A stretch of DNA of 40,088 nt. Source: a virus. A program made the position numbers and the translations under genes. The number at the start of each line of letters is the position of its first letter. The stretch's first letter is position 1. The stretch covers positions 1-40,088 of the IMG/VR virus record IMGVR_UViG_3300031565_000124. One strand, written 5' to 3'. The notes below the pieces were generated by a model. It saw only the letters and a list, made by a program, of their open reading frames with translations. It did not search any database and was not told the origin of the DNA. Positions 3,893 to 21,916 of the stretch are shown one piece after another.

Positions 3893-3934
3893 TTTAATCT
3901 TTAATCTTTAATCTTTAATCTTTAATCCTTAATC
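3893..3934 (-). repeat. heptanucleotide leader repeat (GATTAAA in sense)
   Basis: Five perfect copies and one variant copy of TTTAATC (GATTAAA in the minus-strand mRNA) lie between the promoter and the Shine-Dalgarno of the 90-aa gene. The mirror-image array upstream of the plus operon has ten copies. The sense strand contains no C and should be unstructured. Confidence 0.85.
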
Positions 3935-3936
3935 CT

Positions 3937-3974
3937 TATATTTATAATATACAAAACCATACAGAAAAGTCAAG
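3937..3974 (-). promoter_or_regulatory. divergent promoter, minus arm
   Basis: This is the exact reverse complement of 4044-4081 over 38 bases. Read on the minus strand it gives TTGACT, 16 bases, then TATATT, a plausible sigma-70-type promoter driving 3879 to 464. The 69 bases between the two arms are almost pure A/G on the plus strand, like an UP element or a regulator site. Confidence 0.65.
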
Positions 3975-4043
3975 GAAAAAAGATAAAAAAAAGGGAAAAA
4001 TGATAAAAAAAATAACATGAAAAAGAAAAAATAAAGAAAAAAG

Positions 4044-4081
4044 CTTGACTTTTCTGTATGGTTTTGTATATTATAAATATA
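4044..4081 (+). promoter_or_regulatory. divergent promoter, plus arm
   Basis: TTGACT at 4045-4050 and TATATT at 4067-4072 with a 16-base spacer; the segment matches the minus arm perfectly. It drives the four-gene plus operon 4177-5046. The TTTTGTAT stretch before the -10 also occurs in the promoter upstream of 12227, suggesting a shared promoter class. Confidence 0.65.
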
Positions 4082-4083
4082 TG

Positions 4084-4153
4084 GATTAAAGATTAAAGAT
4101 TAAAGATTAAAGATTAAAGATTAAAGATTAAAGATTAAAGATTAAAGATTAAA
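4084..4153 (+). repeat. heptanucleotide leader repeat, 10 x GATTAAA
   Basis: Ten perfect copies of GATTAAA fill most of the 5' leader between the plus-arm promoter and the first start codon at 4177. After the array the sequence GGTTAAACAA is itself duplicated (GGTTAAACAAGGTTAAACAA). Confidence 0.9.
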
Positions 4154-4176
4154 AAAGGTTAAACAAGGTTAAACAA

Positions 4177-4245
4177 ATGAGCCAGCAGGAAGAATACAAA
4201 AAACAAATAGACAAAATGAATGTTATAACGGAGTACATTTCATGA
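4177..4245 (+). CDS. 22-aa leader peptide MSQQEEYKKQIDKMNVITEY...
   Basis: A short frame starting in the same GGTTAAACAAATGAGC context as the genes at 3610 and 3879, with a matching N-terminus (MSQQEEY versus MSRQEKF). It ends TGA, overlapping the ATG of the next gene by ATGA. It may be a truncated relative of the two minus genes or a leader whose translation controls the downstream gene. Confidence 0.5.
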   Translation: MSQQEEYKKQIDKMNVITEYIS

Positions 4246-4466
4246 AACTACGAAAAACTGACAATGGTTTTGAGATACTTGATAGTGTTGGAGATTCCTT
4301 GATACTTATAACATCAAAAGGAGAAATGTATTCGGCGATGTGGAAAAGATTAACAATAGGGCAAGAAAATTATATATGGAATTGGGTAAGTAAACAGGTG
4401 TCTATACCCTTTGAGCTTGAGGTATTGATCCCGTTTGACACTAAAAATCCTTTTGGTATAGGATAG
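4242..4466 (+). CDS. hypothetical protein
   Basis: 74 aa with no recognised domain; it reads as a small beta-rich fold (NGFEILDSVGDSLILITSKG). Its ATG overlaps the stop of the 22-aa leader, so translation is probably coupled. A TAACGGAG element lies upstream. Confidence 0.6.
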   Translation: MKLRKTDNGFEILDSVGDSLILITSKGEMYSAMWKRLTIGQENYIWNWVSKQVSIPFELEVLIPFDTKNPFGIG

Positions 4467-4477
4467 GAGGCAGGATA

Positions 4478-4726
4478 ATGAGTATAAATAGAATGAAACA
4501 AGATATTATTAGGGATAAAAAAAAGAGGAAACTTATTTGTGAATTAGCAACTAGGTACTGTAACAAAATAAAAGAACAGGGATCAAAAATATATTATTGG
4601 CCGGTAGACTTCTACTGTCAATTTGAAAATAAAAATTTTCGTGAATTATATGCAATAAGAAAAAAGTGGGATACTCTTGAAAAGATACATAAAAAATATA
4701 GTTGTACAAGTACAAAAGAAGAATAA
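4478..4726 (+). CDS. hypothetical basic protein
   Basis: 82 aa, strongly Lys-rich and helical. GGAGG stands 7 bases before the ATG, one of the best Shine-Dalgarno elements here. No family recognised. It lies between the 74-aa protein and the Cys-rich protein in the same operon. Confidence 0.65.
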   Translation: MSINRMKQDIIRDKKKRKLICELATRYCNKIKEQGSKIYYWPVDFYCQFENKNFRELYAIRKKWDTLEKIHKKYSCTSTKEE

Positions 4727-4728
4727 CA

Positions 4729-5046
4729 ATGGCGCTTGAAAAAGATCTATTAAGAAGCATAAAGGATAACTGCCCGAAACACTGCCGACGATGCAATTTT
4801 ACTTTTATTTCCTGCAAAAGTAAAACATTCGGGTGTCAAAAAACGCAGGAGAAATGTCCGTCTGATCCCCTGGACTGCCCTGTTATGATGGACCTTCCGG
4901 AATTGTGCAGACACTGTGAAACCCTCCTGGCGTGCTGTTTTGACGGCGATGCGGAACTGCCTCCTGATAACGTGTTAAGCAATATATGTCAGGAAGAATT
5001 GAAAAAGTATCGGCGAAAATTGGAAATAGAACAGGGAGACGTATAA
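4729..5046 (+). CDS. Cys-rich, probably zinc-binding protein
   Basis: 105 aa starting MALEKDLLRSIKD. This ATG, two bases after the upstream stop, is preferred over an overlapping start at 4702. About a dozen cysteines are clustered (CPKHCRRC near 15-22, then CQ, CP, CP, CRHC, CC), consistent with one or two zinc-ribbon-like knuckles. The C-terminal third is helical and charged. No named family recognised. It is the last gene of the short plus operon. Confidence 0.65.
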   Translation: MALEKDLLRSIKDNCPKHCRRCNFTFISCKSKTFGCQKTQEKCPSDPLDCPVMMDLPELCRHCETLLACCFDGDAELPPDNVLSNICQEELKKYRRKLEIEQGDV

Positions 5047-5243
5047 ATGGAATATCCTAAACAATGAGAATTGGCTCGTAACTCCCGTTGCGTGAGTCTC
5101 ACCTCATGGGCTTCCATATTCTCTTTCTCCGCCCGCTTTTGAGCTGGCTCCCGAAAGTGTTCATACAGGTCAATTGCTCCCCTGGGTATATCAAGAAGGC
5201 TTAAAAAGAGTACGCCCCTAATATTGCCCAGAAGTACCCGGTT
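4989..5243 (-). pseudogene. possible gene remnant antisense to the operon end
   Basis: An 84-codon open stretch, with no good start at its 5' end, contains a coding-like segment (GAIDLYEHFREPAQKRAEKE). Its 3' part runs antisense into the Cys-rich gene. An internal ATG at 5117 with GGAG about 10 bases upstream could start a 42-aa product. It may be a decayed gene end; support is weak. Confidence 0.25.
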
Positions 5244-5308
5244 TCAAGGAATCTTTTAAAAAAGAGCTAAAAAAAATCAATTTTTATCCGAAGGCCGGAA
5301 AATTGCGA

Positions 5309-5336
5309 ACTCCCCCTATTTCAAAATAGGGGGAGT
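5309..5336. terminator. strong perfect hairpin, probable terminator/RNA end
   Basis: A stem of 12-13 bp (ACTCCCCCTATTT pairing with AAATAGGGGGAGT) with a tiny loop. There is no U-tract on either side, so it is not a canonical intrinsic terminator, but it sits between converging operons. Confidence 0.45.
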
Positions 5337-5511
5337 GCCCACAAAAAAAAGTACCCATGCTCCACACAAACACTTTTCTCCTTACATTATCAAACAATCC
5401 AATACTCGTCAAACCCCTTTTAAGTTATTGAGGCATCCTCCAGTTTATTTATATAGCTTTTGGACTCTTCCCCCGGCAATATATACAAAATCCACAAAAT
5501 AGTATAATTAT

Positions 5512-5543
5512 TTTAGTGTCTTTTTAATATTAAAAACACTAAA
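5512..5543. terminator. AT-rich bidirectional hairpin
   Basis: TTTAGTG (5512-5518) pairs with CACTAAA (5537-5543), enclosing the perfect palindrome TTTTTAATATTAAAAA. A-runs and T-runs flank it, allowing termination in either direction. It lies about 180 bases past the primase-helicase stop. Confidence 0.4.
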
Positions 5544-5722
5544 AAACCTTAATTTGTAATTGTAATTGAAAGACCCCCCTTTTTGAAAGTTTACTAAATT
5601 AAAAAGAAAGAATAGGTAGTGAGAAATAGAAATATAATTCAGAAGGAGTAGAAACGACCCCCATTTTAATTATAATTACAAATTATGCAAAAATAGAGTC
5701 AAATTTTGGGGATATATTGCCT

Positions 5723-7801
5723 TTAATTGAACACTTCTTTACCGGACGTATACATATCCTGTACAATCTGTTTTATTTTCCCGGAGGCGACACTTGCCGT
5801 ATACATTTCTTGATTTCTTATGATTACAAACACTTTAGCATCCCCATTTACCCGGATAGCTTTATCGATTGACTGAGCTCCATATCCTCGAAGTATTTTT
5901 CCTATACGTTTTGCTGTTACAAACTTACTATGCAGGAATTCTGCGGGCAAGTTTTCCATAATATCCCGAATACAAATAATATCCGGCTCAAATAGACCGG
6001 TTTTCAGCTCCAATTCCCCCATAATCCACTGCTCCAAATCTGACTTTGTGTAATCAATAATGTAGTTTTTGGCCCTGGTAGATGCCGGGTTTTCTCCGGG
6101 GTGAAAGTTTTCCAGGTTTCGAGCCAGCAGGAATGTCAAGACTCCCCCGGCGTTGTTTGTGCAGTTATTATAAAAATCTGTATAGTATATTTTATCTTTT
6201 TGTTTGGCCTCCGATTTTATGACATACCAACGTCTGTCTCCTTTTTCCAGCCGCATGGGCACTTCTTCATTGGAGAATGCCAAAATGTTCATGGTATTTC
6301 GTTGGGTATAGGAATCCCGGTACATTTCTCGTATCTCTATTTCATCTTCAGTAATGAAGGGTTTAATGGCGTTGTAAAAATTGGAGTTTCCCTCCTGCTT
6401 AAGTTCATTTATCAGGCAAAAACAGGTATGTTTTGCCCACCCGGTGTATTTATCGGACAGATTTTCATTCTGTGGTGCTCGGGCATTGGAGGGACCAAAC
6501 AATTGCCTGAACAGATGGAACATTATACTCTTTCCAATCCCAAACCCGCCAATAATTAAAATAGCATGCCGGATCTTTACTCCCGGATTCTGTACAGCAT
6601 ACCCCAGCCAGTTTAAAAAATGCTCCCGCTCCTCGGGCTCCATGAGATAATTAAGGTGCTCAATGAACCATTTATGAGGAGATCTATCGGGGGCACACCG
6701 GTCATCCCGCCAGATGTTTACACATCTGTTGTTATCTTTAGTTATCAGTATTTTTTCATTTCCCGGTTCATACATAACCTGCTCAGCGTGTTTAATTAGG
6801 CCGTGCAGATGGGCATAGGTAGCCGGGTTTGCCACATTCGCGATTTCAGAAAATTCCGCGTTGAATGCCTCTTTGTTCCGCTCTTTCTGAGGCTCTTCAT
6901 AATTTATAAAAAAATTCCCCCGATAAACATAGAACCAGGAATTTAATTTAGTTTTTACCAGCTCCTGTCGGGCAAGTTCTTTCTCAATTTCTTCTTTTAA
7001 TTCAGCTCCTTTTTTTCCTTTGGCATATTTGAATGCCAAAGATTTCTTTTTTAGATCTTGGTCATTGTATTCATTTTTGAGGTATTTTCTATTGATTGCC
7101 TGAAACTCTGTAAAAATATCCTTTTCAGAAAACGCCAGTCCATTCATGCGCATTGCTATTTTTACAAGTGCTTCATGGGCTCCATTATGGGCCGTGATAC
7201 CGTCAAACAGCACCTTTTCCCATTTACGAACCCCGGTAAGTATCTTTTTCTTGTCCGCGTGAGCCGTGATAATATCCTTAATATCATAACTGGTATTCCG
7301 CAATTTTTTTATGTCATACAGTTGACCCGCTTTAGCCGGTTTTTGATTTGTTGTTCCCGGCAGCCGCATAAGCCGCGCCGGGTTTTTGATTGCCGGGTCT
7401 GCCTGATAAACTTTTATAAGCAGTTCTTGTGTCGTTCGCCAGGAGCCCAAATCATCTGTAGGATTTATGAACCAATAGACGTGATGCCCAAGGCCGTCTG
7501 CCCGGCTTATAATTGCAGTTGGTTCCAGGGGAAAATATTCCGGCAAAGCACTATCATCAATATCAATAAAAATGGCGTTTACACGCTTAATGTCTTTATC
7601 CAAAGTATTAATGCTGCCGGATGTGTTGGGCATATAGAACACACCATACCCGGAATTATTGTGGTAGTCCACAAATTTGGGGTCCAGCGCACCATATAGA
7701 GGGGCTGTATTTTTCCCCCTGCCGTCCTCCTTTATGGCCTTAAATGTAATATGCTCACCATTAAAAAGAATATTAAGAAATTGCTTTGTGCTGTATGCCA
7801 T
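5723..7801 (-). CDS. AEP-type primase / SF3 helicase fusion (D5-like replication protein)
   Basis: 692 aa. The N-terminal RepB-like primase region carries IFIDIDD (about 77-83, catalytic acidic motif) and HHVYWFINP (about 106-114). The C-terminal helicase has Walker A GGFGIGKS (418-425), Walker B-like FCLINEL (about 461-467) and NILAFSN (about 505-511, motif C with sensor Asn). This is the primase-helicase architecture of D5-like/DUF5906 proteins, combining primer synthesis with fork unwinding. AAAGGAG precedes the ATG. It is the last gene of the minus replication operon; the polymerase lies in the divergent plus operon. Confidence 0.88.
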   Translation of the reverse strand: MAYSTKQFLNILFNGEHITFKAIKEDGRGKNTAPLYGALDPKFVDYHNNSGYGVFYMPNTSGSINTLDKDIKRVNAIFIDIDDSALPEYFPLEPTAIISRADGLGHHVYWFINPTDDLGSWRTTQELLIKVYQADPAIKNPARLMRLPGTTNQKPAKAGQLYDIKKLRNTSYDIKDIITAHADKKKILTGVRKWEKVLFDGITAHNGAHEALVKIAMRMNGLAFSEKDIFTEFQAINRKYLKNEYNDQDLKKKSLAFKYAKGKKGAELKEEIEKELARQELVKTKLNSWFYVYRGNFFINYEEPQKERNKEAFNAEFSEIANVANPATYAHLHGLIKHAEQVMYEPGNEKILITKDNNRCVNIWRDDRCAPDRSPHKWFIEHLNYLMEPEEREHFLNWLGYAVQNPGVKIRHAILIIGGFGIGKSIMFHLFRQLFGPSNARAPQNENLSDKYTGWAKHTCFCLINELKQEGNSNFYNAIKPFITEDEIEIREMYRDSYTQRNTMNILAFSNEEVPMRLEKGDRRWYVIKSEAKQKDKIYYTDFYNNCTNNAGGVLTFLLARNLENFHPGENPASTRAKNYIIDYTKSDLEQWIMGELELKTGLFEPDIICIRDIMENLPAEFLHSKFVTAKRIGKILRGYGAQSIDKAIRVNGDAKVFVIIRNQEMYTASVASGKIKQIVQDMYTSGKEVFN

Positions 7802-7923
7802 TATTTTAGTGCTCCTTTAGATTTTTTAGTATTAAGTAAATTTGAGAGTAAACCGGTAATTTTTAGCAGCACCGCTCAGAATTGGTATTTCAAAAAGAGC
7901 CGGAATTTATATTTTATCATATT

Positions 7924-8082
7924 TTATATCCTGCTTAAAATAAATATCAATAGGCCGCCAAGACCCATAATTATAACCAGACAGATAGATATTAAATACC
8001 ATAGAATTTTTATTTGGTTATCCCGTGTTTTACAATATTTTTGGTAGATCCTGTTTGCTTTTTTAGCCTGTTTTCCGCTCAT
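7924..8082 (-). CDS. small membrane protein, one TM segment
   Basis: 52 aa (MSGKQAKKANRIYQKY...). A basic N-terminal half is followed by a hydrophobic segment around residues 27-49 rich in Leu and Ile. Positive-inside charge predicts a cytoplasmic N-terminus. The initiation region is weak, with no clear Shine-Dalgarno, and a competing 10-codon frame starts 14 bases upstream. It lies just downstream of a 27-nt poly-A tract (sense). It could be a holin-like or exclusion protein. The remaining bases from 7802 to 7923 hold nothing recognisable. Confidence 0.4.
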   Translation of the reverse strand: MSGKQAKKANRIYQKYCKTRDNQIKILWYLISICLVIIMGLGGLLIFILSRI

Positions 8083-8094
8083 TCGTTTTGCTCA

Positions 8095-8121
8095 TTTTTT
8101 TTTTTTTTTTTTTTTTTTTTT
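8095..8121 (-). repeat. 27-nt homopolymer (poly-A in sense)
   Basis: An uninterrupted T27 on the plus strand, read as A27 on the transcribed minus strand. It is preceded by ATGTCC, so the tract encodes nine Lys codons and then TGA at the present length. A tract this long should be unstable in replication and prone to transcriptional slippage. Confidence 0.9.
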
Positions 8122-8203
8122 GGACATAGTATATTCTACAAAAACTGAAAGACGGGCAGAGTTACAAAAATGTCTCTCGGTTTTATCTTTATTCCAAAGT
8201 ATA

Positions 8204-8806
8204 TTATTCATCATTCTTATCAATATTCGGCAACTCCGCCCAATGAGTAATCGGCAGTATTATTTTCGCGGTATAGTTTATATACCACCCCCCTTCCATA
8301 GCAGAATCATACATCCGCATTGCTTTCGTGTACCCGGCGTTTTTAAGTTTTACCAAATAATAGGTATTACACTCTGTAGCTGAATTCTGCGTGGGGGGCA
8401 TTTTGTCTTTTACTGAATATAGGACTATTGAGATTTGTGCTGTCTCTTCTAATATGTCCCAATCCGGCCGGTTTAAAGTTATTAGGAGTTTTTTTATTTT
8501 TAGCAGACTATTATATATGTCCCTGATAAGTATATTATTTAATTTATGTATGGACTCATTGTGCCGGGATAAAAAGTTATCCAGTCCCCAATGAGTGTAC
8601 TTATTTTGTACGCCATAAATAATAGTTACAAATACCCAATCTCCGGATTTTACATCTTTTAGATCTGTTTGATCATATGGATAATTGTTAATATCAATTC
8701 CATTCACTTGCTTAATATAATATTTTAAGTTTTTTAGGTGTAATAAAGGCCTTACAAATATTTTTAATTCTTCACTATCATGTTTTTCGTGCAGTACCGG
8801 TTCCAT
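8204..8806 (-). CDS. hypothetical protein
   Basis: 200 aa, soluble alpha/beta, no recognised motif. GGGGAG precedes its ATG and overlaps the presumed ancestral end of the broken DUF3310 gene upstream. The downstream stretch 8083-8203 holds only the homopolymer. Confidence 0.65.
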   Translation of the reverse strand: MEPVLHEKHDSEELKIFVRPLLHLKNLKYYIKQVNGIDINNYPYDQTDLKDVKSGDWVFVTIIYGVQNKYTHWGLDNFLSRHNESIHKLNNILIRDIYNSLLKIKKLLITLNRPDWDILEETAQISIVLYSVKDKMPPTQNSATECNTYYLVKLKNAGYTKAMRMYDSAMEGGWYINYTAKIILPITHWAELPNIDKNDE

Positions 8807-8810
8807 TATT

Positions 8811-9171
8811 TTACTCCCCTTTCAGTTTCTTAATATATTTCAATATACCTATCCGGGTAAAATTGTGCTTTTATTTAAATCCTCGAATTTTTTACCTGGC
8901 CCAGGCCCAGGTGGTAGGAAAGTTTCCAGGCTTCAAAGGCCGCAAGTACCTCAACCTCACCGGTGATGTAATGGCTCGGGTGGTTTACCGGATCATTTGA
9001 TTGGCCGGTTCCCCTTAAACACCCTATGTGGTTTTTGTTTGTTTCATTATTCATTTTATTCATTTTATTCATTTTATTCATTTTATTCATTTTATTCATT
9101 TTATTCATTTTATTCATTTTATTCATTTTATTCATTTTATTCATTTTATTCATTTTATTCATTTTATTCAT
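8811..9171 (-). pseudogene. broken DUF3310-family gene with (Met-Asn-Lys)n N-terminus
   Basis: The intact frame (8875-9171, 98 aa) begins with 13 Met-Asn-Lys triplets, then a linker, then DPVNHPSHYITGEVEVLAAF, a clear DUF3310 N-terminal half. After LSYHLG, where the family normally continues NAIKYI.RAG, the frame runs into LGQVKNSRI and stops. In the other frames the matching tail pieces remain: GKKFEDLNK at about 8875-8901, then ILKYIKKLKGE ending at 8811. So a deletion and at least one frameshift removed the middle of the domain. DUF3310 proteins are common in phage replication operons and lack a settled function. A truncated product may still be made; assembly error is the other explanation. 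Confidence 0.6.
9055..9171 (-). repeat. 9-nt tandem repeat, 13 x ATGAATAAA (repeated start codons)
   Basis: Thirteen perfect copies, each supplying an in-frame ATG, followed by a fourteenth ATG (ATGAATAAT). The GGA of AAAGGAA lies only 3 bases before the first ATG and 12 before the second, so initiation may favour an internal copy. Changes in copy number keep the frame. Confidence 0.92.
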
Positions 9172-9197
9172 TTTCCTTTATTGTTTTAATTCTTCTA

Positions 9198-9407: not shown

Positions 9408-9412
9408 AGAGC

Positions 9413-9676
9413 TCACTCCTCCGGGTCCATTTCTCTTATTATATTTTGTAATGATTTTCTAAGCTCCTTGTCCTCTTTACAAATTATATTATCATAAATG
9501 TTTTTGGCATATGCGCTTGTATCCGCAGCCTGTAAAGCAACCTCTTCAGAAAAACCCCCTTTATTTTTTAGCAGCTCTGCCCAAGCTCTTTTTAATAGTG
9601 CAATACAGTTGCCATACCCATAAATATCAGCATAGTCTTTAATTGCATTTAATGCGGCTTTTTCGCTTATTTCCAT
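9413..9676 (-). CDS. hypothetical helical protein
   Basis: 87 aa, predicted all-helical and acidic at the C-terminus (ends DPEE). Its start carries CAGGAG 8-9 bases before the ATG, and this whole RBS/start segment is duplicated just upstream (9701-9730). No family recognised. Confidence 0.6.
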   Translation of the reverse strand: MEISEKAALNAIKDYADIYGYGNCIALLKRAWAELLKNKGGFSEEVALQAADTSAYAKNIYDNIICKEDKELRKSLQNIIREMDPEE

Positions 9677-9730
9677 ACTATTTACTCTCCTGTTCTATTT
9701 TTCCATACTATTTACTCTCCTGTTCCGTTT
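9671..9730 (-). repeat. 30-bp tandem duplication of an RBS plus start codon, with mini-ORF
   Basis: 9671-9700 and 9701-9730 match at 28 of 30 positions. Each copy carries CAGGAG and ATGGAA in the minus sense. The upstream copy starts a three-codon frame, Met-Glu-Lys-stop (9695-9706), ending just before the second Shine-Dalgarno, which serves the 87-aa gene. Ribosomes may initiate at the first copy, stop and reinitiate. Confidence 0.85.
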
Positions 9731-9754
9731 TTCTATTATATTACCTTTCTTATT

Positions 9755-9955: not shown

Positions 9956-9973
9956 ATCCTTTACATCCTTTAG

Positions 9974-11588: not shown

Positions 11589-12227
11589 TTATTCTTCATC
11601 AAAAATATCATTTTCATTGACTTTTTCATCCTGGTCAAATTCTTCATCCTCGGGGATGTCCAGTTTCTCAAATGGGTTATTTTCTTCCAGCATACATTCT
11701 TTTACTTTCTGAACCCCTACCAGGGTGAATGACACTCCACTTTTTGGTTTGTCCCATAGATACAGTTGAAGGTTGGCATTTATATAATATCCTGCTTGAA
11801 TCTGCCCGGATATTTTCTCTTTTGGTATGTGTTTATTGTGCTGATCTACAACCACTACCGGGTTGAAATCCTCCCGACGACTGGCTCCAATGACATAATG
11901 TCCGGCATAAACGGCAATAGGCTCTTTTTCTTCATCAACTCGCCGTTTGTTCAGTTTATCTCCGTCTTTCAACAGGGCATTATCATTGTACGGGTCTCCA
12001 GCATCATTCGCCACTTTGAGCACCTGAGCCATTTTGCCTTTTCCCCAAACTGTATTTTTCTGAACACCAGCAGTATAGAAATCTTTGATCTTTTTAATCT
12101 GTTCCTTATCCGTTTTAGGTATTAGGATTTTTATGCTGTATTTGGGATGCTGCCCTTCCTGAAAAGTTTTTGCCTCCGCTAACGTGGGGTAATAGCATTG
12201 TACATTGTTAATCGTAATTGCTGCCAT
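11589..12227 (-). CDS. DUF2815 ssDNA-binding protein
   Basis: 212 aa. The N-terminal MAAITINNVQCYYPTLAEAK, the central YAGHYVIGASRREDFNP, and the acidic C-terminal tail (EDEEFDQDEKVNENDIFDEE) match DUF2815, a phage OB-like ssDNA-binding family usually found beside DUF2800 and a family A polymerase; both are in this window. The acidic tail resembles the partner-binding tail of SSB proteins. It is the first gene after the promoter at 12275-12303, with AAGGAGACA before the ATG. Confidence 0.85.
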   Translation of the reverse strand: MAAITINNVQCYYPTLAEAKTFQEGQHPKYSIKILIPKTDKEQIKKIKDFYTAGVQKNTVWGKGKMAQVLKVANDAGDPYNDNALLKDGDKLNKRRVDEEKEPIAVYAGHYVIGASRREDFNPVVVVDQHNKHIPKEKISGQIQAGYYINANLQLYLWDKPKSGVSFTLVGVQKVKECMLEENNPFEKLDIPEDEEFDQDEKVNENDIFDEE

Positions 12228-12262: not shown

Positions 12263-12303
12263 TTGTACTGAAAAGTAATACAAAACAGTACAAATATTGT
12301 CAA
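12263..12303 (-). promoter_or_regulatory. promoter for the minus replication operon with overlapping palindromic operator
   Basis: In the minus sense: TTGACA (12298-12303), 17 bases, then TATTAC (12275-12280). A perfect 8-bp inverted repeat, TTGTACTG (12263-12270) and CAGTACAA (12286-12293) with 15 bases between, overlaps the -10 and spacer. This is typical of an operator for a dimeric regulator, but no repressor gene is recognised in the window. Confidence 0.7.
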
Positions 12304-12346
12304 CAACTTTTTTGTGTATTTTTTGTTTATTTTTTTCTTTTTTTTC

Positions 12347-12375
12347 TTGACACTTTTTTCGATAAAGATTATTTT
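12347..12375 (+). promoter_or_regulatory. promoter for the plus replication operon
   Basis: TTGACA (12347-12352), a 17-base spacer and TATTTT (12370-12375). The -35 is perfect and the -10 weaker. It fires into the 15-nt repeat array that leads to the methyltransferase gene. The T-rich stretch 12304-12346 separates it from the divergent promoter. Confidence 0.55.
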
Positions 12376-12526
12376 TAGAATATAGATTTTTAGAATATAG
12401 ATTTTTAGAATATAGATTTTTAGAATATAGATTTTTAGAATATAGATTTTTAGAATATAGATTTTTAGAATATAGATTTTTAGAATATAGATTTATAAAA
12501 TATAGATTTATAAAATATAGATTTTA
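12371..12526 (+). repeat. 15-nt tandem repeat array, about 10 copies
   Basis: Ten copies of a 15-base unit (AGAATATAGATTTTT) at 15-base periodicity from 12377. The last two vary (AAAATATAG) and the array fades into AAGGATATGG before the start at 12544. There are no spacers, so it is not CRISPR. Each unit contains TATAGAT, close to a -10 hexamer. The sense strand has no C. Confidence 0.9.
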
Positions 12527-12543
12527 AGGATATGGTACTATTT

Positions 12544-13155
12544 ATGAGAATTTTAATTGCCTGTGAATTTTCCGGCGTGGTTCGTGACGCATTTATAAAA
12601 AGGGGGCATGATGCAATAAGCTGTGATTTATTGCCTTCGTTAACACCCGGCCCGCATTATCAGGGAGATGTTTTTTGCATAATAGATAAAGGATTTGATA
12701 TGATGATAGCGCATCCACCATGTACGTATTTATGTACAAGTGGTAATAGATGGATGAAGGACAATCCGGAGAGGGCAATCCGGAGAATGAAGGCCATTAA
12801 ATTTTTCATGGGTCTTTATGATCAAAAAAATATTCCTCGGATAGCCATAGAAAATCCGGTAGGTATTATGTCTACACATTTTAGGAAACCGGATCAGTAT
12901 GTGCAACCTTACTTTTTTGGAAAACCGGAGAGTAAAAAAACAGGCTTATGGCTAAAAAACTTACCTTTATTAGAGCCTACAAATATGGTTGAGCCTGTTT
13001 ATATAATAGGTAAGGATGGTAAAAGATATTCACCGACTCATTACCTTTGTATGTGGAGCAGTAAAAAATTTTACAGTAATTCCAGGGAGAATGTACGGTC
13101 TCTAACTCCGATAGAAATGGCTGAAGCAATGGCCGAGCAGTGGTCTGGTTTATAA
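12544..13155 (+). CDS. minimal cytosine-C5 DNA methyltransferase-like protein
   Basis: 203 aa from the ATG at 12544 (MRILIACEFSGVVRDAF), preferred over 12532 because the latter abuts AAGGA. CEFSGVVRDAF resembles SAM motif I, AHPPCTYL carries the motif IV Pro-Pro-Cys (58-60), and AIENPVG (Glu103) is motif VI. KTGLWLKNLP and the C-terminal RSLTPIEMAEAMAEQW are typical of short phage C5 methyltransferases lacking a target-recognition domain. It probably modifies phage DNA, for instance against host restriction. It is the first gene of the plus replication operon, behind the 15-nt array. Unlike the enzyme at 1856-2467, its catalytic motifs look intact. Confidence 0.78.
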   Translation: MRILIACEFSGVVRDAFIKRGHDAISCDLLPSLTPGPHYQGDVFCIIDKGFDMMIAHPPCTYLCTSGNRWMKDNPERAIRRMKAIKFFMGLYDQKNIPRIAIENPVGIMSTHFRKPDQYVQPYFFGKPESKKTGLWLKNLPLLEPTNMVEPVYIIGKDGKRYSPTHYLCMWSSKKFYSNSRENVRSLTPIEMAEAMAEQWSGL

Positions 13156-13316: not shown

Positions 13317-14318
13317 ATGCGAGAAATAGGGGCAGAAGAACTTAAGGATATTTTAGAAGCACATAAAAAATGGATCTATGATTTGGTTGGGGGGAGACAG
13401 GCAGATCTTTCTGGGGCAGATCTTTCTGAGGCAGATCTTTCTAAGGCAAATCTTTCTGAGGCAAATCTTTTTAAGACAAATCTTTCTGAGGCAGATCTTT
13501 CTGGGGCAAATCTTTCTGAGGCAAATCTTTCTGAGGCAAATCTTTCTGAGGCAAAGCTTTCTGAGGCGAATCTTTCTGGGGCGAATCTTTTTAAGGCAGA
13601 TCTTTCTGGGGCAAATCTTTCTGAGGCAAATCTTTCTGAGGCAAATCTTTCTAAGGCAGATCTTTCTGAGGCAGATCTTTCTGAGGCAGATCTTTCTGGG
13701 GCGAATCTTTTTAAGGCAGATCTTTCTGGGGCAAATCTTTCTGGGGCAGATCTTTCTGAGGCGAGTCTTTCTGAGGCAGATCTTTCTGAGGCGAATCTTT
13801 CTGAGGCAGATCTTTCTGAGGCAAATCTTTCTGAGGCGAATTTTTTTAAGGCAAATCTTTTTAAGGCAAATCTTTCTGAGGCAGATCTTTCTGAGGCAAA
13901 TCTTTCTGGGGCAAATCTTTCTGAGGCAAAGCTTTCTGAGGCGAATCTTTTTAAGGCAAACCTTTCTAAAGCAAATCTTTCTAAAGCAAATCTTTCTAAA
14001 GCAAATCTTTTTAAGGCAAATCTTTCTGAGGCAAATCTTTCTGAGGCAAATCTTTCTAAGGCAAATCTTTCTGAGGCAAATCTTTCTGAGGCAAATCTAG
14101 CCTCAATTAAAGCTGACGAAAAATATCTGTCCATAATAGGTACAAAGGGTAAAATTATCGTTTTTGGCACTAGGGTATGGATAGGATGCATTGAAAATAC
14201 TATTCAAGGATGGCTTGAAAAAGGTGAAGCCATTGCTGAAGAAAATGACTATTCCAAAAAAGAAATAGAAATGTATAGGAAGTATATTTTATATATTTCT
14301 GAATATATTAAAACATGA
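13317..14318 (+). CDS. pentapeptide-repeat protein
   Basis: 333 aa. A 28-residue helical N-terminus is followed by about 47 pentads of the form A(D/N)L(S/F)x (residues 29-263) and a 70-residue C-terminal domain rich in charged and aromatic residues. Pentapeptide repeats fold as a right-handed quadrilateral beta-helix, and some (MfpA, Qnr) mimic DNA and bind gyrase. Here the pentads are far more regular than usual, with Leu at the centre and Glu, Lys or Gly in the last position. The helix has alternating acidic and basic faces, so DNA mimicry is not obvious. AAAGGAG lies 8 bases before the ATG. It stands between the methyltransferase and nuclease genes; an anti-host-topoisomerase or structural role is speculative. 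Confidence 0.85.
   Translation: MREIGAEELKDILEAHKKWIYDLVGGRQADLSGADLSEADLSKANLSEANLFKTNLSEADLSGANLSEANLSEANLSEAKLSEANLSGANLFKADLSGANLSEANLSEANLSKADLSEADLSEADLSGANLFKADLSGANLSGADLSEASLSEADLSEANLSEADLSEANLSEANFFKANLFKANLSEADLSEANLSGANLSEAKLSEANLFKANLSKANLSKANLSKANLFKANLSEANLSEANLSKANLSEANLSEANLASIKADEKYLSIIGTKGKIIVFGTRVWIGCIENTIQGWLEKGEAIAEENDYSKKEIEMYRKYILYISEYIKT
13401..14105 (+). repeat. 15-nt coding repeat underlying the pentapeptide array
   Basis: Near-identical 15-base units (gcaaatctttctgag and close variants) repeat about 47 times. Conservation extends to silent positions, so the array grew recently by slippage or recombination. It also contains repeated blocks of several pentads. Confidence 0.9.
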
Positions 14319-14382
14319 ATAGACAGTCAAGTAATGAAATAAAAAGCATATCCATTAAAATATACATATATGGGGTGTAATA

Positions 14383-16419: not shown

Positions 16420-18322
16420 AATCCATATCGACTTTGAAACCCGGTCCCATTTAGATTTAAAAAAATATGGGGCCTGGGAATATTCTAGGCACCCATCTAC
16501 CGGCATTATTTGTATGGGGTATAAAACTGAGGCTATGAAAACAGCTGAGATATGGATCCCGGGGCAGAAATCCCCCCTGGTATTCCTTAAACCGAATGTG
16601 TTGATAATTGCCCAGAATGCCCTTTTTGAGTATGCTATATACGCAAATATTTGTATAGAAAAACATAAATTCCCAAAACGTGTTCTATCTGTAAAGCATT
16701 GGGCCTGTACTCAAAGCATGTCCCTGTCGGTGGGACTCCCGGGAGGGTTAGCAGATTGTGGTAAAGCGCTGAATCTGGACATAACAAAACTGAATACCGG
16801 TAAAGCCTTAATTCAAAAATACTGTCTCCCCATAAAAGACAGGGAAACAAAAGAATTGACTTTCCGGGAAATGACTTTGGAGGATAGGGAGGCAATGTAT
16901 GAATACTGTAGAATGGACGTGGAATCAGCTGCCGCGTGCTATCAAAAAATATATAGACTGCCTAATATAGAACTGGAGCGGGCAATCTATGAGCTGGATC
17001 TGTTTCAGAATATTCAAGGGTTGCCTGTTGATATGGACGCTGTAAAATACATAGCCGGGATTATAGATGAAGCCAAAGCCCAGGCAGAAAAAGAGATGGC
17101 AGAGCTTGGTGTAAATGTTCGCAGCGTTCCCCAAATGAAAAAGCTATTTGCAGACCAGGGAGAATTGCTCCCCAATCTGCAAATTGAAACTGTAGAGGTC
17201 GCCTATAATACTACAAAAAACCCGTTTTTAAAACAAGTGCTTATACTCCGTATGTTCTTGAGTAAAGCATCTGTAAAAAAATATGACGCGCTAATAAATA
17301 GAACCGGCCCGGACAACTATATCCGGTATGCGTTAAAATATTTTGGGGCACATACCGGCCGGTGGAGCGGTAAAGGTTTCCAGCCCCACAATATGCCCAG
17401 GACAAAAACAACTGTGGATATAATAGAAGCAACTATAAAAACTTTTAGCGCGGATGATTCCCGAGAGACCATAATTGAAAAAGCAAAAATTATGCTGCCG
17501 GGAATGATAAAACCGATAAAAGGGTATGTGTTTCTGCTTGGAGACTTTTCCGCAATTGAAGCTATGGCCATAGCCCTGCTGGCCGGAGAAAAGAAACTGA
17601 TTAAACTTTTCAGGGGTGGGGGTGATCCCTATAAATATATGGGCTCGCTGATTTATAAAATCCCCATTTCTAAAATACAAAAAGAGAGTATCGAGCGGCA
17701 GCTCGGAAAACAGGCTGTTTTGGGCTGCGGCTACTCCATGGCGTGGGAACGATTTTTAAACACATGTGCCAAATATGGAATAATCATATCTGAGGAGCTC
17801 GCTCAGCATACGGTTAAAACTTACCGGGAGGCATACCCCAAAATAGTATCTTTTTGGTATGCTCTGGAAGCGGCTTTTAAAAAAGCAAGTGCTACAAAAA
17901 GCAATAGTCCCATAATACAAGTGGGGGAATATATAAAAATGTGGGGTAAAAACTCCTATGTTGCTGTACAGCTTCCCTCCGGCAGGATTTTATATTATCA
18001 TCGGGTAAAGGTTACCCGGAATGACATTACCTATCACAGCTTCTCCCGAAAAACCAAAGTACATATTTATGGGGGTATGATGGCTGAGAATATTACTCAA
18101 GCGATATGTAGAGATTTGCTGGTTAGCTGTATGCTGGAATGCCATACTCAGAACCTTAATCCCTTTTTACATGTTCACGATGAAATTGTATGCAGTGTAG
18201 AAGAGAAAACAGTCGATCGGGACATGGAGAAATTTAAAACTATAATGAACTCTCCCCCTGACTGGTTTAAGGATCTGCCGCTTAAAACGGAAGTGGAAAT
18301 ATGTACCCGGTATCATAAATAA
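16406..18322 (+). CDS. family A DNA polymerase with 3'-5' exonuclease
   Basis: 638 aa. The exonuclease domain has DFETRS (9-14) as Exo I and YCRMD (177-181) as Exo III. The polymerase domain has motif A GDFSAIEA (Asp380), motif B around 431-445 (RQLGKQAVLGCGYSM) and motif C HVHDEIV (His591-Asp592-Glu593). It is shorter than bacterial Pol I, which has an additional 5' nuclease domain, and fits the phage type paired with DUF2800/DUF2815. Motif A reads EAM where the family usually has an Arg after Glu-x, a notable substitution. It is the main replicative polymerase candidate. Confidence 0.93.
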   Translation: MKQYKIHIDFETRSHLDLKKYGAWEYSRHPSTGIICMGYKTEAMKTAEIWIPGQKSPLVFLKPNVLIIAQNALFEYAIYANICIEKHKFPKRVLSVKHWACTQSMSLSVGLPGGLADCGKALNLDITKLNTGKALIQKYCLPIKDRETKELTFREMTLEDREAMYEYCRMDVESAAACYQKIYRLPNIELERAIYELDLFQNIQGLPVDMDAVKYIAGIIDEAKAQAEKEMAELGVNVRSVPQMKKLFADQGELLPNLQIETVEVAYNTTKNPFLKQVLILRMFLSKASVKKYDALINRTGPDNYIRYALKYFGAHTGRWSGKGFQPHNMPRTKTTVDIIEATIKTFSADDSRETIIEKAKIMLPGMIKPIKGYVFLLGDFSAIEAMAIALLAGEKKLIKLFRGGGDPYKYMGSLIYKIPISKIQKESIERQLGKQAVLGCGYSMAWERFLNTCAKYGIIISEELAQHTVKTYREAYPKIVSFWYALEAAFKKASATKSNSPIIQVGEYIKMWGKNSYVAVQLPSGRILYYHRVKVTRNDITYHSFSRKTKVHIYGGMMAENITQAICRDLLVSCMLECHTQNLNPFLHVHDEIVCSVEEKTVDRDMEKFKTIMNSPPDWFKDLPLKTEVEICTRYHK

Positions 18323-18343
18323 AATACTAAAGAGGTAAAAACT

Positions 18344-18880
18344 ATGGATTTAATGTTGGACTTGGAAACTATGGGTACAGAAATGGACGCTGTAATAGTG
18401 CAAATTGGAGCCTGCTATTTTGAGCGCTCTTTCGGGCATATATTAGGGGAGTTCCTTATAAATGTGGATATGAATTCCTGTATTGATTGGGGGCTGTCTA
18501 TATCACCCAGTACAGTATGGTGGTGGAAAAAGCAGAGTAAAGAAGCTCAAGACGCGTTAAAGACACCTGAACCGGTAAAACTGGAAGACGCTGTAGAGGC
18601 CTTCCGCGCTTTTACACAAGAAAATGATAGTGGGCATAACTGCTTTTTGTGGTGCCACCCCAATTTTGACGAGCCCATTTTAAAAAATGCTTTTAATGCC
18701 TGCGGTACAAATTTCCCTTTTAAATATTATGCTGTCCGAGACGTACGAACCGCTGTAGACTTGTCCGGAATTGATATAAGTGAAGTTGTTCAGAATGGCA
18801 CGCATCATAATGCGCTCGATGACTGCAAATATCAGGCTAGGCTGGTTTCGGAGAGTTTCAAAATAATAAATAATAAATAA
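18344..18880 (+). CDS. DEDDh 3'-5' exonuclease (Rv2179c-like)
   Basis: 178 aa. DLETMG (Asp6, Glu8), CHPNFDEPIL (Asp109) and HNALDD (His155, Asp160) give a complete DEDDh set in the pattern of the Rv2179c-like exoribonuclease family often found in phages. It may trim RNA or proofread, since the polymerase has its own exonuclease. AAGAGG precedes the ATG. The 3' end runs into the TAATAAA repeat, which supplies the last codons (NNK) and the stop. Confidence 0.85.
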   Translation: MDLMLDLETMGTEMDAVIVQIGACYFERSFGHILGEFLINVDMNSCIDWGLSISPSTVWWWKKQSKEAQDALKTPEPVKLEDAVEAFRAFTQENDSGHNCFLWCHPNFDEPILKNAFNACGTNFPFKYYAVRDVRTAVDLSGIDISEVVQNGTHHNALDDCKYQARLVSESFKIINNK

Positions 18881-18912
18881 TAAATAATAAATAATAAATA
18901 ATAAATAATAAA
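18864..18912 (+). repeat. heptanucleotide repeat, 7 x TAATAAA
   Basis: Seven perfect copies straddle the stop of the exonuclease and fill the gap before the Shine-Dalgarno (AAGGAG) of the next gene. Each unit carries TAA, so all three frames are closed within the array. Confidence 0.92.
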
Positions 18913-18932
18913 TAGAGTCATAAGGAGAGCAT

Positions 18933-19322
18933 ATGAAAGAGCGTGATATATTAAATGTTATGATAAAACAGGCAAAAAAGGAAGTCACTAACGGATATTA
19001 TATACATAAAGATGGTGATACTTACGGAGGGCATAAAAAGCCCTATGATTTTTATATCGTATACGAAGGCCGCCATTTTGCAGTTGAAGTGAAATTGGCA
19101 GGGGAGGATTTGACCGATTTTCAAAAAGAGAGTTTAAAGGATGTGGAATTTAAAGGGGGTGGATACTCTTTTACTGCATACATACAAAAAAATAAAGATA
19201 TTGTTTTCAAAGTCTTTTCCCGTCCCTTAGTTTTATATAATTTAAAATGGATAAACACTGAAAGGGGGTACGCGGATTTAAAGGAATTGCCGTTTAATCT
19301 TATGGCAATATACTATTATTAA
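18933..19322 (+). CDS. PD-(D/E)XK nuclease, possible RecU-like Holliday junction resolvase
   Basis: 129 aa. PYDFYIVYEGRHFAVEVK carries Asp39, Glu52 and Lys54 of the core, followed by a Gln at 64 in LTDFQKESL, as in RecU and other archaeal/phage resolvase-type nucleases. The size fits. AAGGAG stands 8 bases before the ATG, just after the TAATAAA array. It could resolve branched DNA before packaging. Distinguishing RecU from other small restriction-like folds needs a profile search. Confidence 0.7.
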   Translation: MKERDILNVMIKQAKKEVTNGYYIHKDGDTYGGHKKPYDFYIVYEGRHFAVEVKLAGEDLTDFQKESLKDVEFKGGGYSFTAYIQKNKDIVFKVFSRPLVLYNLKWINTERGYADLKELPFNLMAIYYY

Positions 19323-19339
19323 AAAGGAGAGTTGATAAT

Positions 19340-19525
19340 ATGGACATCATAAAATTAAAAGCTGTTTTAGAAATTTTTTTTCTCAATCATGATTCAAAGC
19401 GGGGTATACCTGCTCTTGTTGCGGTAAAAGAGCTGCTCACCTTTTTAGAAGAAGAGGGGCTTATTATAGTTGAGAGCGAACCCCTGAATTTTATTATAGA
19501 GAACGCAAACACATTACTAAAATAG
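19340..19525 (+). CDS. hypothetical small protein
   Basis: 61 aa, helical, acidic in the middle (LLTFLEEEGLIIVESE). AAAGGAGAG lies ahead of the ATG. It is the last gene of the plus operon, ending 12 bases before the convergent late operon. No clear terminator hairpin was seen in the gap. Confidence 0.55.
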   Translation: MDIIKLKAVLEIFFLNHDSKRGIPALVAVKELLTFLEEEGLIIVESEPLNFIIENANTLLK

Positions 19526-19536
19526 ATTTAATACAT

Positions 19537-19860
19537 TTATTCATCCTTGCATTGGACATAGTCCCGGTAGCGGGGCCCCTCGTAGTCAACCGGGTTTGGT
19601 GCTTTTGTAACCGGGTCTAAGCCAAAATACTCTCTACGGCAGCGTTCCCGCTTGCGGGTTTTTTCCTGCTGCTTCAATGAATTTATACATATTGGAATAG
19701 CAGACGCAGCCAGTTTTTTCTCTTTATCTTTGTACTCAAAATCCATAATGGTAGCCATAATATTGCATTCATCCGGCCAGCCGGGAATTATCTGAGGTTT
19801 GAAAGACTGACACCCCAGGCAAAAAATAATTAAAATCAATCCTGTTATATATTTATTCAT
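19537..19860 (-). CDS. small lipoprotein, candidate outer-membrane spanin subunit
   Basis: 107 aa from the ATG at 19860, which overlaps the upstream stop; a GTG nine bases earlier is possible. A short basic start, hydrophobic stretch and FCLGC give a signal peptidase II site with Cys17 as the lipidated residue. The mature part is charged and carries three more cysteines. It is the last gene of the late operon, behind endolysin and membrane-protein genes, where o-spanins lie. Known: o-spanins tether to the outer membrane and work with an inner-membrane partner. The assignment rests on position and signal. Confidence 0.6.
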   Translation of the reverse strand: MNKYITGLILIIFCLGCQSFKPQIIPGWPDECNIMATIMDFEYKDKEKKLAASAIPICINSLKQQEKTRKRERCRREYFGLDPVTKAPNPVDYEGPRYRDYVQCKDE

Positions 19861-20107
19861 ATCGCACACTTTCCCCCATAGTTTTTTTATATTGAATGCT
19901 AACTCCCGGTTTTATCTCAACTTTACCACCTACATACCCGAAAGAAGTCAGGAGCCATGCGGCAATCAAAAGGATAGTTAAGATCATTAAAATCTCTTTT
20001 AAATTGTACCGCAAACTCCCCATAACAATGCGGGGAATAGTGGGCAGACTCATAAGCCATTTATTTTCGCTTATAAGCTCTTTGGTTTTTTTCTTCTTTA
20101 CCGGCAT
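19853..20107 (-). CDS. small inner-membrane protein, candidate holin or i-spanin
   Basis: 84 aa. The Lys-rich N-terminus (PVKKKKTK) should stay in the cytoplasm. One strong TM segment spans residues 38-58 (KEILMILTILLIAAWLLTSF), leaving about 26 periplasmic residues. This topology suits either a single-TM holin or a short i-spanin; the periplasmic part looks too short for a typical coiled-coil i-spanin. It overlaps the lipoprotein gene by 8 bases. Confidence 0.55.
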   Translation of the reverse strand: MPVKKKKTKELISENKWLMSLPTIPRIVMGSLRYNLKEILMILTILLIAAWLLTSFGYVGGKVEIKPGVSIQYKKTMGESVRYE

Positions 20108-20547
20108 TACACACCTTTCTTAAAATAAAAAGGTATATCCATATCTTTTAAATATATTTCCGGGTTGCACGGGATACCGTTTGACCAAACTTCAAAGTGC
20201 AGGTGCTCCCCGTATTTTTTAGATTCCATATATTCTGTTACCATGGGAAAGCCGATAAATTTATCTTTATGAATAATGGCCTCTTTTATGATGGTATCTG
20301 CCGGTTGGATATGGATAAATTTTAATTTTTTTCCGGACACCATCCCCCGAGCCACAATAGTATAGCCCCATTTTTTTTGATATGTGGTGTGTAATATCTG
20401 CATACCTTCAGGAGCCACAATGGGAAGCGGTTTGGTAGGATTTTCTGTTAAACGGGTTCGCAGATCTATCCCCAGGTGTGGCAGTCTAAATCCTTTACGT
20501 CTCCCGAATCGACTTGTGATTATCTGTTTACTCCTCTTTACAATCAT
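20107..20547 (-). CDS. M23-family peptidase endolysin
   Basis: 146 aa from the ATG at 20547 (MIVKRSKQ), with GGAA about 9 bases upstream; a GTG three codons earlier is also possible. Near the N-terminus HLGID supplies the HxxxD zinc ligands and EHLHFEVW the HxH pair, with FIHIQ at the usual intermediate His; this is a LytM/M23 zinc endopeptidase that cuts peptidoglycan cross-bridges. There is no signal peptide, so it needs a holin. Position next to the spanin-like pair supports a lysis role. Confidence 0.85.
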   Translation of the reverse strand: MIVKRSKQIITSRFGRRKGFRLPHLGIDLRTRLTENPTKPLPIVAPEGMQILHTTYQKKWGYTIVARGMVSGKKLKFIHIQPADTIIKEAIIHKDKFIGFPMVTEYMESKKYGEHLHFEVWSNGIPCNPEIYLKDMDIPFYFKKGV

Positions 20548-20749
20548 TGCTTTCACTTCCCTTACGGTTTTTTACAGTTATTATATTTTCAATTATGAGT
20601 TGTCCCTCAACAAAATCATTATCATTTAAATGCGCGCTGTTTTTATACATTTCTTTGGCAATATCTACAATAGGATAAGCTGATAATTTTTCCATTTCAG
20701 CTTTTATAATCTTTAAACAGACTTGTATCTCTATTTTATTATCGCTCAT
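20528..20749 (-). CDS. hypothetical protein upstream of the lysis genes
   Basis: 73 aa, helical N-terminal part, ends SNDCKEE. Its 3' end overlaps the endolysin start, so the two are likely coupled. CAGGAT precedes the ATG. No family recognised; no TM segment, so it is not a holin. Confidence 0.55.
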   Translation of the reverse strand: MSDNKIEIQVCLKIIKAEMEKLSAYPIVDIAKEMYKNSAHLNDNDFVEGQLIIENIITVKNRKGSESNDCKEE

Positions 20750-20753
20750 TTTA

Positions 20754-21860
20754 TTATCCTGTTATTTTGATATACCCGACACCTCCGGCACCTCCGGGGC
20801 CCCCGGATGAATACCCGCTGACCCCCGTGGACACGCCGCCGCCGCCGCCACCGCCGCCACCGCCATCGGACCCCGCCGAACCGGTACCACCGGGTATTAA
20901 GTGGGAAGATGTCCCGGCACCTCCCCCTCCGCCAAGAAAAGAGGCCCCGTCTCCGCCATTGCCCCCAACTGGGACACTGGGGACTGAAAAAGCCAGTCCA
21001 GGACTGCCCCCAACCCCTGGTATAGTGAAATCAAATCCGGCAGAAGAGACACCCCCGGAACCCCCGGAACCCCCGGAACCCCCGGAAGTCCCGGGAATTC
21101 CCACTGACCCGTTTGCCCCGTTTTGTGCGGATAAATTTGTTGTGCCATCTGAAAAAGTTATATTACCGCCTGGTGTGGTAGAGAGAATAGCGGTCCAGGA
21201 GTCTCCAGCCGGTATGAAAATGGTCTTTGTTCCAAATAAACCATTGCCGCCGCCGCCGCCACCGCCACTTCCATTTACCCCTGACGTGGCAGTCCCCCCG
21301 GCTCCCCCCGCACCCCCTGAAGCCTGACATTCAATCGTGTAGGTTTTTGATATTGGGGATATCCATGTACCGGAAGCGGTTATGAAATTAACATATCGGG
21401 GGGCTAGGTTTGTTATGCTGTTTATGGCTTCTCCGTCCAGTTCAAAAAACGGGGTCAATAAGTTATTTAATGTTACAATAGACCCGGTCGAGTCAAGACA
21501 CCAATTTAAAACCCGGTATCCGCTCCCATTATATCTGGCATTTGTAAGAGCGTCAAAAGTCCCGGAGTCTGTAGAGATTGTGGGGGTTAAATTTAAAGGT
21601 CCGGCACCGTCTAAAGATATAAAATACCGCCCGGGAGTAGACAGGTTAAAAGCCACTGGGGAATTTATGGAATATAATACTCCATTTACATCAACCGGCC
21701 CGGATATTTGCAGTGTTGCTATTGCACCTACCGCAGTTATGACCGTGTTATCCATACCACTTCGAGCCGCTACTATGTTTGTATTTTGAGCCTGATATCC
21801 TGTGCTCACCGCTGCGGGTGTGGATGTCGGATTATTTATGATTTCAGCTTCATTGGCCAT
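20754..21860 (-). CDS. glycine-rich tail fibre / adhesin-like protein
   Basis: 368 aa. Residues 1-170 form a beta-rich attachment part. From about 180 to the end there are long Gly-rich blocks (GGAGGAGG, GGGGGGG, SGGSGGSGG) separated by short hydrophobic strands, ending VGYIKITG. Gly-rich phage adhesins such as T2/S16 gp38 pack as polyglycine type II helices and bind receptors through the loops. It is the most distal tail gene, next to the collar-domain fibre, so it is a likely receptor-binding protein. A TTTTA pentanucleotide repeat lies just ahead of its AAAAGGAG. Confidence 0.75.
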   Translation of the reverse strand: MANEAEIINNPTSTPAAVSTGYQAQNTNIVAARSGMDNTVITAVGAIATLQISGPVDVNGVLYSINSPVAFNLSTPGRYFISLDGAGPLNLTPTISTDSGTFDALTNARYNGSGYRVLNWCLDSTGSIVTLNNLLTPFFELDGEAINSITNLAPRYVNFITASGTWISPISKTYTIECQASGGAGGAGGTATSGVNGSGGGGGGGNGLFGTKTIFIPAGDSWTAILSTTPGGNITFSDGTTNLSAQNGANGSVGIPGTSGGSGGSGGSGGVSSAGFDFTIPGVGGSPGLAFSVPSVPVGGNGGDGASFLGGGGGAGTSSHLIPGGTGSAGSDGGGGGGGGGGVSTGVSGYSSGGPGGAGGVGYIKITG

Positions 21861-21871
21861 CTGTATGCTCC

Positions 21872-21916
21872 TTTTATTTTATTTTATTTTATTTTATTTT
21901 ATTTTATTTTATTTTA
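21872..21916 (-). repeat. pentanucleotide repeat, 9 x TTTTA
   Basis: Nine copies of TTTTA (TAAAA in sense) abut the Shine-Dalgarno of the Gly-rich fibre and contain the stop codon of the upstream collar gene (21909-21911). The sense strand lacks C. Copy-number change would alter the leader, not the reading frame. Confidence 0.9.

Follow-up and report, generated by a model that had tools for sequence, protein, structure and literature searches.

The viral contig IMGVR_UViG_3300031565_000124, a 40,088-base IMG/VR virus record that we analysed over its whole length (the window), carries an unusual excess of short tandem repeat arrays, seven of them at the starts of genes. These are probably slippage-born repeats that are tolerated in leaders, in intercistronic spacers and, in frame, within genes. 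The arrays were located with Tandem Repeats Finder (TRF) and by direct reading. All seven arrays listed in a preliminary description of the sequence were found where it had placed them, and all are free of cytosine in the mRNA sense. They end about 10–23 nt from an ATG or, in the case of one 9-nt unit, begin over the start codon. The same description called each of them A-rich, which does not hold for a 15-nt unit with seven T, six A and two G. Genes in the window include those of a tailed phage (gpA-type terminase, lambda-type portal, family A DNA polymerase, and tape measure), together with a VapE/D5-like primase-helicase and an SNF2-type helicase.

By a fixed rule (perfect runs; units of 4–20 nt with at least 3.5 copies and at least 25 nt; homopolymers of at least 14 nt), the window has eight arrays in 40 kb. 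The same rule identified fourteen in 2.21 Mb of comparator phage contigs (eleven in 1.26 Mb and three in 0.95 Mb), so that array density is 32-fold higher in the window (Fisher p 2.6e-9). These comparators were fetched as relatives of the polymerase or terminase and are distant (~30% amino-acid identity); they therefore serve as a sample of tailed phages in general. When the comparison was matched for GC content, thirty-nine contigs (556 kb) held a single array. The number expected in the window is 0.07 (GC-matched) or 0.25 (all comparators) against the eight observed, and third-order Markov shuffles of the window gave no such array in fifty trials. The C-freeness of the arrays is mild: C makes up 10.5% of leaders without arrays, and the probability that units of these lengths would all be C-free, judged post hoc, is about 1%.

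Repeat growth in the window is not restricted to starts, as two coding arrays missing from the preliminary list demonstrate. One consists of about forty-seven imperfect copies of a 15-nt unit (consensus AGGCAAATCTTTCTG; 13399-14098, plus strand) within a gene for a pentapeptide-repeat protein (13317-14318) that has a strong match to the Pfam Pentapeptide family. The other, ACCCCCGGA × 4.1, is a C/G-rich 9-nt array (21051-21087, minus strand) inside a glycine-rich gene. Because these arrays lie away from starts, the excess is genome-wide. Nearly all short noncoding gaps in phages precede a start, so arrays in such gaps end up at starts. In the window, 1604 of the 3299 noncoding nt lie no more than 80 nt ahead of a start, and all five independent noncoding arrays are found there (p 0.03; p 0.09 if codirectional and divergent gaps are used instead). 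Taken alone, the window is weak evidence for start-specific placement.

Two arrays span the distance from the stop codon of one gene to the start of the next, overlapping the upstream gene's stop codon and supplying its last codons. On the plus strand, AAATAAT × 7.7 (a 7-nt unit, 18861-18914) encodes the C-terminus and stop of an exonuclease gene (18344-18880) and then forms the spacer up to the ribosome-binding site (RBS) AAGGAG, which is followed by ATG 18933. On the minus strand, TAAAA × 9.4 (21872-21918; TTTTA on the given strand) encodes the last residues and stop of a tail-collar gene (21909-22469); directly next to it come the RBS (AAAAGGAG) and ATG 21860 of the glycine-rich gene.

The 15-nt array, ATTTTTAGAATATAG × 10.9 (12371-12533, plus strand; perfect part 12371-12494), is the leader of a DNA methyltransferase-like gene (12544-13155, phrog_757). 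A promoter predicted by consensus match only (TTGACA-17-TATTTT, 12347-12375, plus strand, 10/12 matches) has its −10 hexamer over the first unit, and the array makes up nearly all of the predicted 5′ untranslated region (UTR). The phage carries a second phrog_757 (DNA methyltransferase) paralogue at 1856-2467 on the minus strand.

The two GATTAAA arrays belong to the two arms of one inverted repeat (82 nt, 98% identical) that includes the promoter (TTGACTTTTCTGTATGGTTTTGTATATTATA), and thus represent one birth. The left cassette (3880-3974, minus strand) comprises the promoter TTGACT-16-TATATT, (GATTAAA)6.6 at 3893-3938 (TTTAATC × 6.6 on the given strand by TRF and direct reading), and the RBS AGAGG, upstream of a 90-aa open reading frame (ORF; 3607-3879). 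Its inverted duplicate on the right (4044-4176, plus strand) has the same promoter and (GATTAAA)10.0 at 4084-4153, then two copies of the RBS-spacer AGGTTAAACA, and leads to ATG 4177 of a 22-aa ORF that overlaps the gene at 4242-4466. On each arm the predicted promoter, again a consensus match only (10/12 sigma-70 matches), points to the RBS and ATG. Copy number diverged after the cassette was duplicated, with 6.6 and 10 units in otherwise 98% identical copies. The right arm also gained a second copy of AGGTTAAACA; the pair, at ~4154-4173, is a young duplication. The independent births proposed in the preliminary description hold for several different units, but not for seven arrays. A AGGTTAAACAAATGAGC-like element and a similar N-terminus (MSxQE..) are common to three starts in this region (3581-3621, 3854-3902, and 4154-4206); judging from the sequence, an RBS/start element seems to have been copied three times within 3581-4206.

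The 9-nt array, TTATTCATT × 14.2 (9047-9174, minus strand), is coding. It lies downstream of its RBS and first ATG and, as (ATG AAT AAA)n, forms the N-terminus of ORF 8875-9171, in which Met-Asn-Lys repeats are followed by a short DUF3310-like stretch. A tract of twenty-seven A (A27; T27 on the given strand, 8095-8121, minus strand) lies ahead of a 52-aa ORF (7924-8082). An ATGTCC just upstream of this tract opens a mini-ORF, ATG TCC (AAA)9 TGA (Met-Ser-(Lys)9-stop; 8093-8128, minus strand), that stops 9 nt before the start of the 52-aa ORF and is in the same frame. That A27 switches the frame into the 52-aa gene was rejected, since the mini-ORF shares the frame of this gene already and terminates at TGA. 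If translated, the mini-ORF would give a poly-lysine leader peptide. Across the window, the 9- and 15-nt coding arrays are in frame, and the 1-, 5-, and 7-nt arrays are noncoding or end at a stop. Phase variation had been raised in the preliminary description, but frame switching cannot be its basis: every listed array except the 9-nt one is noncoding or ends at a stop, and nine is a multiple of three.

Matching arrays in other genomes show different anchoring. Exact (GATTAAA)4 is present in only three IMG/VR contigs, and in each the array reaches an ATG or stops within ~10 nt of one. Only the arrays match between these contigs and the window, and horizontal transfer of the array was rejected for that reason. 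A scan of IMG/VR for (ATGAATAAA)4 returned no match. In genome contigs, exact (GATTAAA)4 was found at no fewer than 113 loci from many bacterial phyla, including Bacteroidota, Chloroflexota, Calditrichota, Bacillota, Gammaproteobacteria, Patescibacteria, and others. Genes outside annotated records were called with a simple gene caller of our own. Thirty-eight of the sixty-two sense arrays lie within 20 nt of the preceding stop, with twenty-seven running into the stop codon, compared to 3/37 antisense arrays; only 6/65 are within 20 nt of the next start. Bacterial GATTAAA arrays also occur intergenically at convergent and antisense settings. The sense arrays are anchored to stops and not to starts. 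This stop-codon anchoring across bacterial phyla is a separate observation that merits a systematic survey.

Homologous bacterial loci also differ in array length. Three Pseudoalteromonas loci (L217, L259, L261) have GATTAAA copy numbers of 82.3, 10.3, and 16.6, and homologous Shewanella loci, with ~99% identical downstream flanks, have 11.6 and 4.6 copies. Together with the paralogous cassettes in the window, these loci show that the copy number of such arrays really changes. The downstream flanks of the three Pseudoalteromonas loci are nearly identical and tRNA-gene-like in appearance. Among viral contigs, L175 (55% GC) has GATTAAA-like arrays at 5898-5946, 6447-6503, 7230-7257, 11753-11805, and 12275-12315, possibly a genome-wide leader repeat.

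Exact (TAAAA)7 was found in twenty-two IMG/VR contigs. Where both neighbouring genes are known, thirteen arrays are between codirectional genes in the sense orientation, two are antisense, one is convergent, and none is divergent. The sense-strand bias is no larger than that of 10-nt (two-unit) seeds (45:5); because the seed bias suffices, we rejected array-specific selection on orientation. A typical junction reads ...ATAAAATAAAATAAAATG, with the upstream protein ending in ..IIK or ..IKIK encoded by the array. The arrays often take up the whole interval from stop to start, and several directly adjoin the ATG with no RBS between. A-rich, C-free arrays ending at start codons do occur in unrelated phages. 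The single selective pressure at starts that the preliminary description inferred is nevertheless not supported: the window gives p 0.03–0.09 once noncoding space is considered, the bacterial GATTAAA arrays are stop-anchored, and the TAAAA bias is that of seeds.

We judge the most likely origin of the window arrays to be slipped-strand duplication and expansion from A/T-rich seeds in an unusually slippage-prone genome, with slippage as the inferred cause and tolerance as the inferred filter. Arrays would persist where a change of length is tolerated, namely in 5′ UTRs between promoter and RBS, in stop-to-start spacers, and in coding sequence as in-frame multiples of three. TAAAA and AAATAAT (and GATTAAA in bacteria) carry TAA stops in every frame, so that expansion from a stop codon would lengthen the upstream protein by a few residues at most and would spare the RBS beside the ATG. 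Copy number would set leader length or stop-start distance and likely cause a mild change in transcript, reinitiation, or translation levels, on the model of hmw1A (below). Copy number may act as a mild dial on expression of the next gene; dedicated phase variation by a purpose-built switch is unproven.

Some observations weigh against simple tolerance of slippage. Convergent and edge noncoding DNA, 1264 of the 3299 noncoding nt, is without any strong array. TAAAA arrays are at short stop-start junctions in 6/9 independent families versus 21% of 8-nt seeds (p 0.004), where the nine families are our own grouping and the junctions were sampled by the presence of an array. In addition, at one orthologous junction (L296/L310; 78–81% nucleotide identity in the surrounding sequence) the array has stayed perfect, at 46 and 42 nt; a neutral repeat decaying freely would hardly do so unless slippage rehomogenises it. 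At L293/L307 (73% identity) the arrays count 7.4 and 8.4 units, though orthology at this junction is less clear. Neither the L293 nor the L296 TAAAA junction led to a useful match when phage records were searched. On a further, unlikely reading, expandable A/T-rich arrays that run exactly from stop to start would recur in unrelated phages under selection, as spacers able to evolve and to tune translational coupling a few bases at a time. Such spacers would be kept at orthologous junctions while their copy number drifts, and the phage in the window would represent the extreme, with several different units at once.

Selection on expression is, second to tolerated slippage, the explanation we take most seriously, though we consider it a good deal less probable. 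Under it, the leaders would be hypermutable and copy number would tune or vary the level of the next gene, as in hmw1A of Haemophilus influenzae, where the heptamer array of hmw1A/hmw2A overlaps the −10 of promoter P2 and lies in the 5′ UTR, a higher copy number was shown to lower expression, and copy number varies in patients (PMC8262952). The 15-nt and GATTAAA arrays, placed over the −10 or in the 5′ UTR, would then act on transcript level or stability, and the TAAAA and AAATAAT arrays on translational coupling. The 15-nt array matches the hmw1A anatomy in overlapping a predicted −10 and forming the 5′ UTR, copy number has diverged between the GATTAAA cassettes, other phages retain a perfect array at an orthologous junction, and two of the genes that follow are plausible contingency genes (the glycine-rich gene beside the tail-collar gene and the methyltransferase-like gene). 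However, the remaining genes with arrays are housekeeping or of no known function, and start specificity in the window is weak. Predicted access to the RBS is also nearly independent of array length. We measured the predicted unpaired probability of positions −20 to +12 while trimming array units from the 5′ end, obtaining 0.66–0.70 for GATTAAA leaders, 0.63–0.68 for TAAAA, 0.56 for AAATAAT, and 0.85–0.88 for A27. The 15-nt leader gave 0.32–0.45, below the gene median of 0.54, and its folding is at the level of its shuffles (z 0.17). The preliminary description had expected unstructured leaders, but leader structure as the effector is not supported; since trimming changes predicted RBS accessibility so little, a structural dial is unlikely. 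The routes remaining in this analysis would be leader length (through transcript stability or promoter output) and stop-to-start distance (through translational coupling).

Third, and distinctly improbable, is that the arrays offer multivalent binding to a factor that recognises A/U-rich RNA (ribosomal protein S1 or a cold-shock protein, for example) and would raise ribosome capture. Binding of this type is MacGregor's proposal for TAACTGA heptamers, and it would suit leaders that are A-rich, C-free, mostly unstructured by prediction, and just upstream of starts, as well as the TAAAA arrays of unrelated phages that touch an ATG with no intervening RBS. Most noncoding arrays in the window (A27 excepted) do have an RBS between array and ATG, which makes capture by S1 unneeded; moreover, the 15-nt leader folds like shuffled sequence, the different units have no motif in common beyond A/T-richness, and most of the GATTAAA arrays in bacteria lie far from a start. 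We think it very unlikely that 3880-4176 is an iteron-like replication origin or repressor-operator array instead of a leader repeat. Its GC content is 19%, and two inverted arrays of short direct repeats flank a 69-nt purine-rich core, but both arms carry a predicted sigma-70 promoter (10/12 matches) aimed at an RBS and ATG, the 7-bp period is out of helical phase and shorter than usual iterons, GATTAAA arrays sit at stop codons in unrelated genomes, and the other arrays of this genome are not of such a kind. Least probable of all is that assembly artefacts account for the copy numbers and perhaps for some of the arrays. The k-mer limit of common short-read assemblers is 127 nt. The two longest perfect tracts, at 128 and 124 nt, are near this limit, longer true arrays could be clipped, and copy numbers in the window may be affected in this way. 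Tracts of 27–70 nt, however, fit well within one read, an assembler could not invent so many different units, the two GATTAAA cassettes differ in an ordinary way, and identical units are found in other contigs and in isolate genomes. If the arrays act, they would give phages a cheap and reversible means of changing gene-to-gene expression ratios via small spacer insertions. If they are inert, this small phage genome would still bear tandem repeats on a Borg-like scale and be tractable for studying slippage-proneness.

In Borg extrachromosomal elements, perfect A-rich tandem repeats with many different units are specific to each genome and lie both between genes and in frame in ORFs; some of them begin inside gene ends (PMC9879509). 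The window is like them in its genome-specific excess, its diverse perfect A-rich units, and its in-frame coding units; Borgs, however, are huge, linear, and have an archaeal host, whereas the window is a 40-kb tailed-phage contig with terminase, portal, and tape measure. Likeness to hmw1A is found in the 15-nt array over a predicted −10 and in the GATTAAA arrays between promoter and RBS, the promoters being predicted by consensus match only. The intercistronic arrays of the window lack this promoter-RBS placement, and the window differs further in having many different units in one genome. The resemblance to Borgs is thus one of burden and unit diversity and that to hmw1A one of the anatomy of two leaders, and the window is a member of neither group.

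TAACTGA repeats are known from Beggiatoaceae, Cyanobacteria, and Bacteroidetes, where most run forward and lie shortly before start codons; some overlap the ends of upstream ORFs, and some Bacteroidetes have longer arrays (PMC4679880). There, a single C-containing unit occupies ~170 sites in one genome, usually without an RBS, whereas each unit in the window is at one site or in an inverted pair, mostly with an RBS. TRF found no array of the TAACTGA unit in the window. Another viral contig, L290, has AACTGAT × 7, the TAACTGA heptamer rotated, at 2582-2632, ~40 bases from an AAATAAT × 11 array. The preliminary description knew of no such phage system, which is too strong: neuO of prophage CUS-3 is switched by a phage-borne heptamer array of variable copy number that lies within the ORF and changes the reading frame (PMC13001214). 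No window array can switch frame, and the only leader array deep in an ORF has a 9-nt unit. Long simple sequence repeats of prokaryotes, as summarised in PMC4679880, have units of 5–11 nt, most commonly heptamers, with coding units in multiples of three, and slippage has been proposed for them (Mrazek 2007); the survey is of cellular genomes, and phages are not covered in that summary. The window has repeats of this class (units of 1–11 nt in runs beyond chance), its coding units are multiples of three, and its 15-nt unit is outside the size range.

No close relative for comparing copy numbers emerged from megablast of phages or single-protein scans, where the best phage polymerase matches are ~32% identical, and the glycine-rich gene and small leader genes gave no or weak protein family matches. 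A search of Rfam matched no family; this includes a convergent noncoding gap of 676 nt (5047-5722), which is also without an array. Weak noncoding arrays of AGATTAAG × 3.4 and TGTATA × 3.3 lie at 353-423, past the stop of ORF 464-1387, and the former has GATTAA in common with the 7-nt arrays. Last, a 30-nt tandem duplication (9670-9733, minus strand) that carries an RBS and start codon precedes ORF 9413-9676. This is a young duplication at a leader, and it creates a short upstream start (Met-Glu-Lys-stop) ahead of the real start of that ORF.

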